DNA of 64,000 nucleotides, from positions 2,480,001-2,544,000 of the forward strand of contig NZ_CP109460.1 of the NCBI RefSeq assembly GCF_036227565.1, written 5' to 3'. Under the pieces are notes generated by a model that was not told the origin of the DNA, did no database searches, and was given only the letters and a program-made list of their open reading frames with translations. Every line of letters starts with the position of its first letter. Position 1 is the first letter of the stretch. The stretch is from Streptomyces sp. NBC_01454 (GTDB lineage Bacteria; Actinomycetota; Actinomycetes; Streptomycetales; Streptomycetaceae). Made by a program: the position numbers and the translations under genes. Below are positions 51,641-54,990 of this stretch, piece by piece.

Positions 51641-52816
51641 TCAAAGAACCCAGGAGTTGGCCGGGTCGTCCAGCCACACCCTTTCGCCGTCGGCGGTCAC
51701 GGTCAGACCGAACCGCGATGGGTCCGGCCGGCCATGGCCGTCCCACCATCGGAACGCGGCCTCCACGTCGTCCCACAGCCGGCGGGGGCCGAACTGCCAG
51801 ACGCGCGCCGTGTCCCCGTCGCGGAACATGCAGCACGCCCAGGACCGGTCACTCAGGCTGTAGAACCAGACCGGCCGGGCGCCGTCGCTCTTCTCCGCTG
51901 CGAAGTGCCAGCACTGCGACACGCGGAGCCCCAGGGCGAACCGCTCGGGGCCGAATTGCTCCCCGACGAACTCCCTTTCCGTGACGGTCGTGGACGACTC
52001 GTCGCCGTCGGCCACACTGCCCGTGACGTACTCCTTGTGGACCACGGGCGAAATCCGCTGGGACCGGAGCTTCATGAACTCCACGGGCCCGGTGAACTTC
52101 CCGGAGGCGCTCTCTCCGTCCGGCGCTACGACCAGGCGGGCCACCGCGTCACCGTGGCTGTAGTTCGTCCCCCACGGGGCCACGATGACCCCGCCGGGCC
52201 GGCACTGCTCCACCCACGCGAACGGGATGGAGCGGAGGCCGCACGTAGCAATGACCCGGTCATACGGCGCTCCCTCCGGGTAACCCTGGAACCCGTCGCC
52301 GTGGACGACGTGGAGGGGGATTCCCAGCCGCTCCACCGTCGCCATGGCGGTCGTGGCCACCGCCCGGTCCACCTCCACCGTGGTCACGCTCCCTGGCCCC
52401 GCACGGTGGGCCATGAGCAACGCATTCCAGGTAGTGGCCGTGCCGATTTCCAGGGCGTTGTGGCCCGGCTGAAGGTCCAGGTCCTGGAGCATCCGGAACA
52501 CCACGGAGGGCATGGACACGGAGCTGGTGGGAACGTGGCCGGGTTCAGCGCCAGCGTGCTTCCCGTCGTCCCACTGGGTCACGATCGGTACGTCGGAATC
52601 CGCGCACTCCTGCCACTTGGCAGGGTCGTCCGCTTTGGACACGGCCACGCTCCGGCCGGCCGCCATGTCGAATGGCCACATGAGGTCCGGCAACACGGCG
52701 GAACGGGGAACGGCCTCGTACGTGGGGACCCAGTCGGAAGAGAGGGCCCCTGAAGACATGAGGACGCGCCCCAGCCCGTCAAGGCTGGGACGCTCCTTGT
52801 GCGCGTCGGCGGTCAC
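51641..52816 (-). CDS. PIMT-like (protein-L-isoaspartate O-methyltransferase family) methyltransferase with extra C-terminal domain
   Basis: A 391-residue SAM-dependent methyltransferase. The N-terminal two thirds resemble protein-L-(iso)aspartate O-methyltransferase: 'PDLMWPFDMAAGRSVAVSK', SAM motif I 'ALEIGTATTWNALLM', acidic 'VTTVEVDRAV' and 'VIATCGLRSIPFAW'. About 130 C-terminal residues ('WFYSLSDRSWACCMF', 'DDVEAAFRWWDGHGRP') are not in housekeeping PIMTs. In actinobacteria such extended PIMTs accompany RiPP precursors. The GTG start lies 3 bases after the stop of a 40-codon gene, so the two are probably co-translated. No dehydratase, cyclase or ATP-grasp gene is near. The true substrate is unknown. 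Confidence 0.85.
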   Translation of the reverse strand: MTADAHKERPSLDGLGRVLMSSGALSSDWVPTYEAVPRSAVLPDLMWPFDMAAGRSVAVSKADDPAKWQECADSDVPIVTQWDDGKHAGAEPGHVPTSSVSMPSVVFRMLQDLDLQPGHNALEIGTATTWNALLMAHRAGPGSVTTVEVDRAVATTAMATVERLGIPLHVVHGDGFQGYPEGAPYDRVIATCGLRSIPFAWVEQCRPGGVIVAPWGTNYSHGDAVARLVVAPDGESASGKFTGPVEFMKLRSQRISPVVHKEYVTGSVADGDESSTTVTEREFVGEQFGPERFALGLRVSQCWHFAAEKSDGARPVWFYSLSDRSWACCMFRDGDTARVWQFGPRRLWDDVEAAFRWWDGHGRPDPSRFGLTVTADGERVWLDDPANSWVL

Positions 52817-52819
52817 TGC

Positions 52820-52942
52820 TCAGGCAACCTTGGGCGGGTTCGGCTGCCCCGGGCCGCCATCAGGGGACGGAGGCTGATGCGGGCCGGGGTACGGCTCCCC
52901 CGGGAGCTTGTCGCCACCGTCGTTCGCAAAGATCGTGATCAC
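52820..52942 (-). CDS. Small peptide gene (40 aa), candidate RiPP precursor
   Basis: A 40-codon frame with GTG start (complement of 52940-52942) and GGAGG 4 bases upstream. Its stop lies 3 bases before the methyltransferase start. The peptide begins hydrophobic ('VITIFAN'), then is Pro/Gly-rich with two Asp-Gly-Gly sites ('NDGGDK' and 'SPDGGPG') and ends 'PPKVA'. Asp-Gly is the sequence most prone to aspartimide formation, the product expected when a PIMT-type enzyme methylates Asp. There are no Cys, only one Ser and one Thr, so it is not a lanthipeptide precursor. The alternative is an unrelated small protein. The gene is well supported; the function is inference. Confidence 0.6.
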   Translation of the reverse strand: MITIFANDGGDKLPGEPYPGPHQPPSPDGGPGQPNPPKVA

Positions 52943-53048
52943 GTTTCCTCCAGGGTGCTCTCACCGATGGTTGACCCGGCCGGCTGCCGTAGTCCAGGGA
53001 CAGGCGGCCGGGGCCTTACCCGCCCCTGTTCCGGGGGCGGAGTCTGTG

Positions 53049-53300
53049 TCAGTCCGCGGGCGGGCCGTCAAGCTCGCCAGGCTGAGGGTGGGGCAAGCCT
53101 GCCCCCTCGTCGTCATCCGCCGTGGGACCTTCTCCGCTGTTCCCACCGCCCATGCGTCTTTCCCTTTCGCGTCGTTCTGACTTGCTGCCCGCCGGCTTGC
53201 CGTGGATGCGGTCCCGCAGCCGGGCCAACAGGTCGGTCTTTTCGGCTCGTTGCCTGCCCTGGTTTCGGTCGTCCTCGGCCACGGCACCGGTCTGTTTCAC
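53049..53300 (-). CDS. Small charged hypothetical protein
   Basis: An 83-residue hydrophilic protein with a basic middle ('LLARLRDRIHGKPAGSKSER') and an acidic, Gly/Pro-rich tail. No domain is recognised. The GTG start (complement of 53298-53300) lies 10 bases after the stop of the preceding small gene and has only a weak ribosome-binding site, so coupling is likely. It is the third small gene of a minus-strand operon that leads to the 40-aa peptide and the methyltransferase, with a 106-base gap before the peptide gene. Confidence 0.55.
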   Translation of the reverse strand: MKQTGAVAEDDRNQGRQRAEKTDLLARLRDRIHGKPAGSKSERRERERRMGGGNSGEGPTADDDEGAGLPHPQPGELDGPPAD

Positions 53301-53310
53301 TTGGTCCAGC

Positions 53311-53544
53311 TCACGGCATGCCCCGCTTGCGGGCCCGCCGGAGCTTCGCCAGGGCCTGGAGTTGTCGCCCTTCGCGCTCCGTTCCGGGTCGCAGACGGCC
53401 GTACGCCACGTACCAAGTAAGGCCCGTGGGCCGTTCCAGGCCGACCATCAGGCCCTTCACGTCTCGCACCACGGCCACCATGTCGACGTCCCGGTCAAAG
53501 ACGACGCTCCCCGTCGTGATCTGTTCGGGCAACGTGTAGAACAT
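53311..53544 (-). CDS. Small conserved-looking hypothetical protein
   Basis: A 77-residue protein: 'MFYTLPEQITTGSVVFDRDV', then a beta-rich core ('VAVVRDVKGLMVGLERP', 'LTWYVAYGRLRPGTERE') and a basic C-terminal helix ('LAKLRRARKRG'). It resembles small proteins found beside XRE-DUF397 genes in other Streptomyces (recollection, not checked). The ATG (complement of 53542-53544) has GGAGG 8 bases upstream. It lies in a tight minus-strand operon, 20 bases after the preceding gene. Function unknown. Confidence 0.65.
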   Translation of the reverse strand: MFYTLPEQITTGSVVFDRDVDMVAVVRDVKGLMVGLERPTGLTWYVAYGRLRPGTEREGRQLQALAKLRRARKRGMP

Positions 53545-53564
53545 GAGTGGTGCCTCCGTCCTGA

Positions 53565-53765
53565 TCACGCCCGTACCTCCCTTCCGTGCGGGTGGCCCGC
53601 GATCACCCCGTTGAGGCTCCGGACCTCCAGCGAACGGCCCGCCTGCCGGGCCACCTCCCGCTCCTGGCCGCAGGGTTCGCACACGTCGCACCCCGGAACC
53701 GGGACGGGCTCCCCCTTCGGGTCCGCCAGGTCACCGGTGGACGCTGAAGCTGTTCGCTCAGTCAT
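53565..53765 (-). CDS. Small CxxC protein
   Basis: A 66-residue protein with a CDVCEPC cluster near residue 26 and a C-terminal 'LNGVIAGHPHG' with histidines. It could be a small zinc-binding protein. It is the first gene of the minus-strand operon. The ATG (complement of 53763-53765) has GAGGGG upstream. It diverges from the XRE regulator gene across 176 bases, a region that must hold both promoters. Small CxxC proteins of this type are common beside XRE-DUF397 genes in Streptomyces (recollection). Function unknown. Confidence 0.65.
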   Translation of the reverse strand: MTERTASASTGDLADPKGEPVPVPGCDVCEPCGQEREVARQAGRSLEVRSLNGVIAGHPHGREVRA

Positions 53766-53941
53766 CCGAACCCCTCACTCTGTGCGGCTGGTTGGTGACA
53801 AGAGTGGGGGAGACATCGGTACCGTGGGGAGAGATTCAGCGCCCAACCTGGGCGTTGGTCAGGCTGGCATGTGCGCATGCCGTTGACCGGCTTCCACGTC
53901 GCCGCCACCGGGAGTGACCAGGTCAATGGTCAGGGGGAGTT

Positions 53942-54784
53942 ATGGACTCCAACGGAGTCGAAACAGGGGGCGCAGAGGGCGCATACGACCCGCGCCGGCA
54001 GTTCGCCGAGGAGTGCCGGAGCGCTCGGGAGCTGCACCCACAAGGGCCCCTGAACCAGACGCAACTGGCGAAGATGGTCCGCACGTCGAAGAGCACCATC
54101 AGCCGTGTGGAGACATGCGTGGGGCCTATCCCCGCGGACCTCCCGGCCCGGCTGGACCAGGTCTTTTCGACAGACGGACTGTTCAAGCGGCTGTACGAGG
54201 AGATCACCGCCCAATCGTTCCCAGTGCACTCCCGCCGACGGATCGAACTGGAGCCACGCGCGGTCAGCATCTCCGCGTGGTCGCCCACGGTGGTACCCGG
54301 CCTCCTTCAGACGGCGCCTTACGCGCGGGCCCTTCTCCGCGAGGGCGACCCCAGGGCGAGTGATGAAGAAGTGGCCACACTGGTCCGGGCGCGAATGGCG
54401 CGACAGGAAGTGCTGAAGGGCACTTCTCCGCCGGACTTCTCCGTGGTCATCTGTGAGTCAGTGCTCCGGCGGAACGTCGGGGGCCAAGACGTGATGCGGG
54501 AACAGCTCTCCGCGTTGCTCGCCCACGGCTCCCAGCGAACCACCGTGCTACAGGTGATGCCGCTATCTGCGGAGACTCACGGGCTCATGGACGGTTCCAT
54601 GTCCATTCTCACCACCGTGGACGGGCCGCCCGTGATCTACACGGAGGGCATCAGGTCAGGGACGATCATCGATGATCCTTCCACGGTGCGGCTCCTCTCG
54701 CGGTCCTACGATGTACTCACCGCTTCAGCCCTCTCTCGTGACGCGTCCGCCCACCTGATCCGCAAGCTAATGGAGGCATCGTGA
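53942..54784 (+). CDS. XRE-family regulator with DUF5753 domain
   Basis: A 280-residue regulator. The N-terminal helix-turn-helix is 'LNQTQLAKMVRTSKSTISRV' (about residues 38-57), followed by the DUF5753 domain ('SAWSPTVVPGLLQTAPYARA', 'VICESVLRR', 'GLMDGSMSILTT'). It belongs to the large Streptomyces family encoded next to DUF397 proteins (Scr1-Scr2-like pairs). The ATG at 53942 has GGGGGAG upstream. The DUF397 gene overlaps its stop by 4 bases. It diverges from the small-gene and methyltransferase operon and is a likely regulator of it. The helix-turn-helix is slightly divergent but complete. Confidence 0.92.
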   Translation: MDSNGVETGGAEGAYDPRRQFAEECRSARELHPQGPLNQTQLAKMVRTSKSTISRVETCVGPIPADLPARLDQVFSTDGLFKRLYEEITAQSFPVHSRRRIELEPRAVSISAWSPTVVPGLLQTAPYARALLREGDPRASDEEVATLVRARMARQEVLKGTSPPDFSVVICESVLRRNVGGQDVMREQLSALLAHGSQRTTVLQVMPLSAETHGLMDGSMSILTTVDGPPVIYTEGIRSGTIIDDPSTVRLLSRSYDVLTASALSRDASAHLIRKLMEAS

Positions 54785-54990
54785 CCCCCCTGATTCACCC
54801 CTGGGTCAAGTCCAGCTACAGCAGCCAAGACGGTGGCGACTGCCTGGAGTGGTCCCCGGCGCACATATGCGCCCACGGCACCGTTCCCGTCCGAGACAGC
54901 AAGGACCCGGAAGGGCCGGCCCTGATGTTCGAGCCGGCCGCGTGGTCCTCGTTCGTCGCCGGCGTGCGGGCGGGGGACTTCCCCGCGTAA
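54781..54990 (+). CDS. DUF397 protein
   Basis: A 69-residue DUF397 protein: 'WVKSSYSSQDGGDCLEWSP' and 'VPVRDSKDPEGPALMFEPAAW' are the family motifs. It is the usual partner of XRE-DUF5753 regulators; some pairs behave like toxin-antitoxin systems or pleiotropic regulators. The GTG start overlaps the regulator's stop by 4 bases. It has full family length. A 19-bp perfect hairpin follows. Confidence 0.92.
   Translation: MTPLIHPWVKSSYSSQDGGDCLEWSPAHICAHGTVPVRDSKDPEGPALMFEPAAWSSFVAGVRAGDFPA

Follow-up and report, generated by a model that had tools for sequence, protein, structure and literature searches.

A two-gene locus on the minus strand of the Streptomyces genome segment analyzed here (64,000 nucleotides, hereafter the window) is with high probability a type I pamtide (imiditide) locus, in which a 40-residue peptide would be the substrate of the adjacent PAMT and residue Asp28 would be converted to aspartimide and isoaspartate. 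Homology, the order of the genes, the composition of the precursor, a conserved Asp and the enzyme architecture all support this assignment when compared with the published description of type I, and it upholds the proposal of the preliminary description that the pair is a stand-alone RiPP system of the imiditide type. The class was described in 2023, two of its pairs have been tested, and the locus is best filed as a member of this known class; the pair may already be included in the supplementary list of PMC10787088. Two features appear to go beyond the published description, a nearly constant peptide core with a variable N-terminus and an XRE/DUF397 gene pair located divergently upstream.

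The precursor peptide gene (52820..52942, minus) consists of 40 codons between a GTG start at 52942 and a TGA stop at 52822-52820, and encodes (V/M)ITIFANDGGDKLPGEPYPGPHQPPSPDGGPGQPNPPKVA. The peptide contains 7 Gly, 11 Pro and 3 Asp (17.5, 27.5 and 7.5%, respectively) and no Cys, as expected from its initial characterization as Pro/Gly-rich and Cys-free. A GGAGGA sequence (52946..52951, minus), located 3 nt upstream of the start, is the likely ribosome-binding site as read from the sequence, and accounts for the good site claimed earlier. The peptide stop is followed by a single codon (GCA) and then by the GTG start of the methyltransferase gene, leaving a gap of 3 nt with both genes in the same frame; the earlier placement of a 40-codon gene three bases ahead of the methyltransferase was thus correct in its coordinates.

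The methyltransferase gene (51641..52816, minus; GTG start) encodes a PAMT-type protein of 391 residues with a PIMT domain and a C-terminal domain. The protein matched PF01135 (PCMT domain) above the cut-off with 83.7 bits, and scored 285 bits against TIGR04188 (methyltransferase of ATP-grasp maturase systems), below the model cut-off of 380. Housekeeping or repair PIMTs are single-domain proteins of about 210–230 residues that score above their family cut-off; the present enzyme is longer, and its scores against the repair-PIMT models NF001453, NF010549 and TIGR00080 fall well below each cut-off. In the predicted structure most blocks have pLDDT of 90–98, the C-terminal part being mostly above 90, and the structure of Thermotoga maritima PIMT (1dl5) aligns with the model over 310 of its 317 residues, spanning both domains, in agreement with the PIMT fold plus extra C-terminal domain noted at the outset. 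The modelled C-terminal domain corresponds to the extension of more than 100 residues on the PIMT homologue that characterizes type I. The sequence WDGHGRP (51725..51745, minus) conforms to WXXXGXP, a motif named for RiPP-associated PIMTs in the text of PMC13001092 and found in the type I pamtide/imiditide class; the W...G.P pattern is present in 29 of the 31 enzymes of subfamily A (defined below). The peptide was not docked on the enzyme in the predicted model and its pLDDT was 28–37, which was weighed against the pamtide assignment.

Type I pamtides are described in the main text of PMC10787088 as two-gene systems with a Gly/Pro/Asp-rich precursor of about 45 residues, a conserved Asp near Pro/Gly and an enzyme with a C-terminal extension, and the length and composition of the present peptide agree with this description. 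They are equated with imiditides in the review PMC13001092, as far as its text goes, which counts 1414 type I pamtides and gives NmaA of Nonomuraea maritima as the other tested pair. Co-expression of SpaA/SpaM from S. sparsogenes DSM 40356 yielded mostly peptide of unchanged mass plus species of -18 and +14 Da, and in the in vitro reaction and in hydrazine trapping the pair behaved like the other PAMTs, the Asp-to-isoAsp step not being directly confirmed (PMC10787088, main text). Compared by description, SpaA-SpaM and NmaA-NmaM share with the present locus the two-gene organization, a linear precursor that is rich in Gly, Pro and Asp, free of Cys and contains a conserved Asp, a PIMT homologue bearing both a C-terminal domain and the WXXXGXP motif, and no other RiPP enzyme in view. 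The present subfamily differs from them in lacking a basic C-terminal tail, in its almost unchanging core and in the frequent presence of a divergent XRE/DUF397 pair. Most type I precursors carry conserved acidic and basic residues at the N- and C-termini (PMC10787088), and the charged tails are held to be important for SpaA and NmaA (PMC10787088 and PMC13001092, in the parts that treat them); subfamily A lacks the basic tail, although this trait is stated of most precursors and is not strictly defining. The view that the precursor is unlike the basic ones known before holds in that it is not strongly basic, but its novelty does not, since the published type I set is itself about 45 residues long and Gly/Pro/Asp-rich.

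Other classes with the same enzyme family fit less well. Type II pamtides or cysimiditides (FcaA-FcaM) follow the same two-gene logic, but their precursors have a four-Cys zinc ribbon (CxxCxGxG-D-CxxCxGxG), whereas the present peptide is free of Cys. Graspimiditides (group 13 graspetides with a PIMT homologue) have a related methyltransferase, as indicated by the TIGR04188 match below cut-off, but no ATP-grasp enzyme was found beside the present locus. Among the flanking genes scanned (about 44.1–59.1 kb of the window) neither a lanthionine or ATP-grasp enzyme, as had been stated, nor any other RiPP enzyme was identified, leaving a precursor and a PAMT with no primary enzyme of another RiPP class. 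The scanned neighbors were an alpha-amylase-family protein, maltokinase, GlgB, a DctA-type transporter, a sensor kinase, a response regulator, small ORFs and the XRE/DUF397 pair.

The S. sparsogenes genome that was searched is that of ATCC 25498, which we take to be the same strain as DSM 40356. It gave 15 TIGR04188 matches, eight of which were examined: three are type-I-like pairs, namely a subfamily A member (L008/L036, enzyme 69% identical to the present one), a subfamily B member (L017/L039, 59%) and a more distant pair (L035, 40%); in three others (L033, L034, L040) the enzyme follows an ORF whose end resembles ATP-grasp by eye, and the remaining two were not readable. SpaA/SpaM may be one of these three type-I-like pairs.

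Relatives of the enzyme are abundant. A total of 1490 proteins among the 7997 candidates scored were related at E<=0.001, and those among the 120 matches listed are 63–92% identical, the named ones being from Streptomyces. Of 392 Streptomyces genomes searched, 117 gave a match at E<=1e-60; in a wider survey of the class, 36 of 394 genomes had such a match, and these represent 17 of 137 genera, Streptomyces being counted among them. The search for homologous peptide-enzyme pairs suggested earlier was performed on a set of 122 loci, consisting of 21 loci from the genome contig collection (which gave 24, three distant ones, L022-L024, being excluded), 100 places from the Streptomyces search and the present locus (L025). 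The 100 places were chosen in score order down to 3.7e-92, and one second copy in genome G301 and all weaker places were excluded. A peptide profile built from ten seed peptides of such loci was run on 14,403 ORFs (at least 25 residues, six frames) of the 122 loci, and gave 76 ORF matches at E<=1.1e-3, distributed over 75 loci, with all further rows at E 0.13 or higher; the present peptide scored 5.2e-20, being itself one of the ten seeds. All 76 matches are located upstream of the methyltransferase on its strand (the ten seeds by construction), and the gap between peptide and enzyme varies from -31 to +59 nt, apart from a second copy at +154 in L099. This second copy belongs to two tandem family precursors ahead of a single enzyme (genome G091), one with a PDG core and an A-like tail and the other with PDS and a basic tail. 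After removal of four duplicates, 118 distinct enzymes remained, of which 72 are accompanied by a family peptide and 33 by another Gly/Pro/Asp-rich ORF at that place, while 12 have none by the cut-off and one lies at a contig edge. Among the 33 enzymes at least 60% identical to the present one, 31 have the family peptide, L012 has none and one is at a contig edge. The occurrence of homologues without the peptide, named in advance as evidence against a RiPP pair, was thus encountered in part, in that 12 of the 118 enzymes lack an adjacent precursor by the cut-off, but three of these 12 loci (L136, L150, L163) show by eye a precursor-like ORF below it. A whole-genome search with a 12-row peptide profile in the genomes of eight of the 12 peptide-less enzymes, with at most 150 candidates per genome, found no convincing peptide copy, and recovered the peptides of three positive controls.

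Several individual loci deserve mention. Enzymes of neighboring branches, 55–58% identical to the present one, lack an adjacent precursor in L105, L108, L113 and L117, and all of these four except L117 have a divergent DUF397 motif upstream. Most loci of L135, L138 and L142-L169 encode enzymes of about 45–48% identity accompanied by a different, highly conserved Gly/Asp/Ser-rich precursor without the Pro core, such as GGNPQDDSDSGNKHGGGGSDEGGNTNDG... In L041 (genome G391), a fragment at 20-268 downstream of the whole methyltransferase gene is 82% identical to its last 83 residues and represents a partial tandem copy. The present genome itself contains a paralogue of 41% identity (L026, G000:C1:6096798-6097877) with a small Gly/Asp/Lys-rich ORF upstream; two DUF397 matches lie directly past its end on the opposite strand, and the matched stretch is reported with one internal TGA.

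For analysis of residue conservation, the 72 family peptides were trimmed to 26 residues ahead of the PDG-like motif and then aligned. The predicted modified residue, Asp28 within PDGG (codon at 52859..52861, minus), is Asp in 71 of the 72, and the position after it is Gly in 71. All 72 peptides contain Pro17 and Pro25, whereas Pro14 and Gly15 are present in 71 and Asp11 in 68, position 12 being Gly in 31 and Lys in 27. Both of the DGG sites recognized at first are present in the peptide, but only the second is conserved, Asp8 of the first being Asp in just 28 of 72. The single exception at Asp28 is the L111 precursor (genome G232), in which the otherwise invariant Asp is replaced by Asn to give Asn-Gly. 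An Asn-Gly sequence could reach the same succinimide through deamidation.

By the tail the peptides fall into four subfamilies: A (31 members, including the present peptide, with PDGGPGxPNPPK), B (32 members, mostly basic, such as GDGTHRK), C (two members) and D (seven members). In subfamily A the sequence closes with PGxPNPPK and a few further residues; the THRK/KHRK tail seen in subfamily B is absent. When a tree was built from the 118 enzymes, the smallest clade containing nine tenths of the A members (31 leaves, support 0.74) comprised 29 of the 31 of them together with L011, at a contig edge, and the peptide-less L012. The two remaining A members, L015 and L102, are placed elsewhere; in L102 the peptide is of type A but the adjacent enzyme belongs to a different branch. 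For the 31 A loci, pooled pairwise pN/pS was lowest in the 26-residue core (0.17), intermediate in the enzyme (0.40) and highest in the nine residues ahead of the core (0.81), pS being similar in all three (0.48–0.51; core 0.48), the pairs being non-independent and the values hence descriptive rather than a test. The peptide core is under purifying selection and the N-terminus is variable. Because all the profile matches lie upstream on the methyltransferase strand and the pN/pS of the core is so low, the 40-codon ORF is a real gene, conserved in place as the earlier prediction required and conserved in sequence.

By analogy with the published relatives, the linear 40-residue peptide would be bound as substrate by the adjacent PAMT, which would transfer a methyl group from SAM to the carboxylate in the side chain of Asp28 within P-D-G-G; the backbone amide that follows would then displace methanol to form the aspartimide (succinimide), which would open mainly to isoaspartate. 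The peptide and the enzyme would most likely be produced from one transcript. It is unlikely that the modified residue is Asp11, or Asp11 together with Asp28: Asp11 is indeed kept in 68 of the peptides, but Asp28 is kept in 71 with Gly after it in 71, and Asp11 stands at the border of the variable region before a position shared by Gly and Lys. That the small ORF is merely a translated leader, coupling or regulating translation of the methyltransferase, could be suggested by the 3-nt gap and the shared frame between stop and start; this is very improbable, since the low core pN/pS at a pS of 0.48 means that amino acids are kept rather than DNA, and the gap differs among loci.

A different role for the peptide would be that of a small accessory or inhibitor subunit, the true substrate of the methyltransferase being another protein (isoAsp repair or a dedicated partner). 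The peptide core is almost invariant, and a near-invariant core is unusual for a secreted RiPP; some enzyme relatives also lack a peptide next to them, and none was clearly recognizable at other places among the 150 or fewer candidates scored per genome. Such a subunit is nevertheless quite improbable, because the acidic residue with the strictest conservation is an Asp that precedes Gly in a Pro-containing context, as in the type I precursors of the main text of PMC10787088, and the characterized PAMTs with this C-terminal domain act on their paired peptide according to the relevant parts of PMC10787088 and PMC13001092.

Divergently from the peptide-enzyme pair, the window contains a gene for an XRE-type regulator with DUF5753 (53942..54784, plus; PF19054 above cut-off), a candidate regulator of the locus that scored 128 bits against NF058600 (Sco1979 family), below its cut-off of 350. 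The end of this gene is overlapped by that of a small DUF397 protein (54781..54990, plus; PF04149), DUF397 being the domain of BldB paralogues in the account of PMC10294661. An XRE relative lies divergently upstream in 22 of the 31 subfamily A loci, and many XRE partners are just 28–38% identical to the present one. DUF397 lies divergently upstream in 19 of the 31 A loci against four of the 74 B, C, D and 'other' loci (Fisher 1.9e-9), the present locus being scored as a miss because of its short stored stretch although the gene is present in the window; when motifs were scanned with the present locus excluded, the result was 15 of 30 against four of 74 (6e-7). These counts are to be read with the common ancestry of the A loci, the unequal length of the stretches and the 36 DUF397 matches genome-wide in mind, and the specificity for A is blurred by the peptide-less group outside the comparison, in which seven of 12 loci also have a divergent DUF397. 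By tblastn at any position and strand, DUF397 was detected in 12 of 32 B, one of two C, none of seven D and four of 33 'other' loci (17 of 74 in total); for the XRE protein, 18 of the 32 B loci contained a relative. The XRE/DUF397 company may thus be wider than subfamily A, the divergent layout appearing typical of A. In the present genome, five of 14 PIMT-like places (own included) lie by eye within 6 kb of a DUF397 match, with about 0.5 expected. Within the stretches examined, no glgB or dctA relative was found beside the other A loci, and the cassette therefore sits in different places; this favors the association, as does the low identity of many XRE partners. The locus is a two-gene pair as originally described, but the term "minimal" may be wrong, given the divergent XRE/DUF397 pair at most subfamily A loci.

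Between the XRE gene and a gene for a 66-residue CxxC protein (53766-53941), the sequence TGGTCAGG occurs twice, at 53856 and 53927, as a candidate operator, and the block by the XRE start is largely conserved in L001, L002, L070 and L071 and partly in L077. The 66-residue protein gene (53565..53765, minus; tblastn matches in 10 of 31 A loci, own included) is possibly the first gene of the transcription unit of the pair. It is followed by a small ORF ahead of the peptide (53311..53691, minus; matches in six of 31 A loci, own included), which has 126 residues from its first start, the true start being probably further in. An 83-residue ORF on the strand of the pair (53049-53300), with a Gly/Asp/Pro-rich tail (MGGGNSGEGPTADDDEGAGLPHPQPGELDGPPAD), could be a second precursor, and was seen in just three of the 31 A loci, own included.

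Neither DUF397 nor XRE is mentioned in the main text of the pamtide paper PMC10787088 or of the review PMC13001092. Among the literature matches listed for DUF397 with RiPP or aspartimide, the one paper containing DUF397 was PMC13097080, which reports that graspetides of groups 11 and 13 co-occur with DUF397 and DUF5753 genes. According to PMC10294661, the S. venezuelae regulator WhiJ9, whose gene adjoins that of the DUF397 protein BldB9, activates the neighboring iosA, an inhibitor of sporulation. The iosA-whiJ9-bldB9 locus is similar to the present one, by description, in that genes for an XRE-type regulator and a DUF397 protein adjoin a small effector gene, but differs in that IosA is a predicted 15-kDa protein of pI 10.3 and a methyltransferase is unmentioned in the relevant part of that paper. 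On this basis we propose that the peptide-enzyme pair is the output of an XRE/DUF397 switch; such control is suggested by the neighboring genes, and the company of the regulators is an association only. If the switch were a toxin-antitoxin-like cassette, the XRE/DUF397 pair would control a peptide that restrains growth or development of its producer. The divergent pair in most subfamily A loci and the iosA precedent point in this direction, but 12 of the 31 A loci have no DUF397 in the stretch examined and such pairs occur commonly in Streptomyces, the present genome alone giving 36 PF04149 matches, and the cassette is doubtful.

Returning to the type I pamtide assignment, a fixed core with a drifting N-terminus would be the reverse of an arms-race antibiotic with a conserved leader, and the nearly constant core together with the recurring regulator neighbors hints at a regulatory rather than an antibiotic role. 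We tentatively consider, as a possibility that is still rather doubtful, that the peptide is a conserved intracellular or signaling effector of Streptomyces and not an antibiotic, switched by a WhiJ/BldB-like XRE/DUF397 pair, the aspartimide or isoAsp at the fixed Asp serving as an on/off or maturation step. Linking pamtides and imiditides to a biological function is regarded as the bigger challenge in the review PMC13001092. The regulator pair beside subfamily A is of the type tied to sporulation and antibiotic control, and a subfamily with a near-constant core across many Streptomyces species and a frequent regulator pair provides a concrete and cheap test case for function. If the effector role is true, it would give the aspartimide class a biological role, in the control of development or of secondary metabolism.
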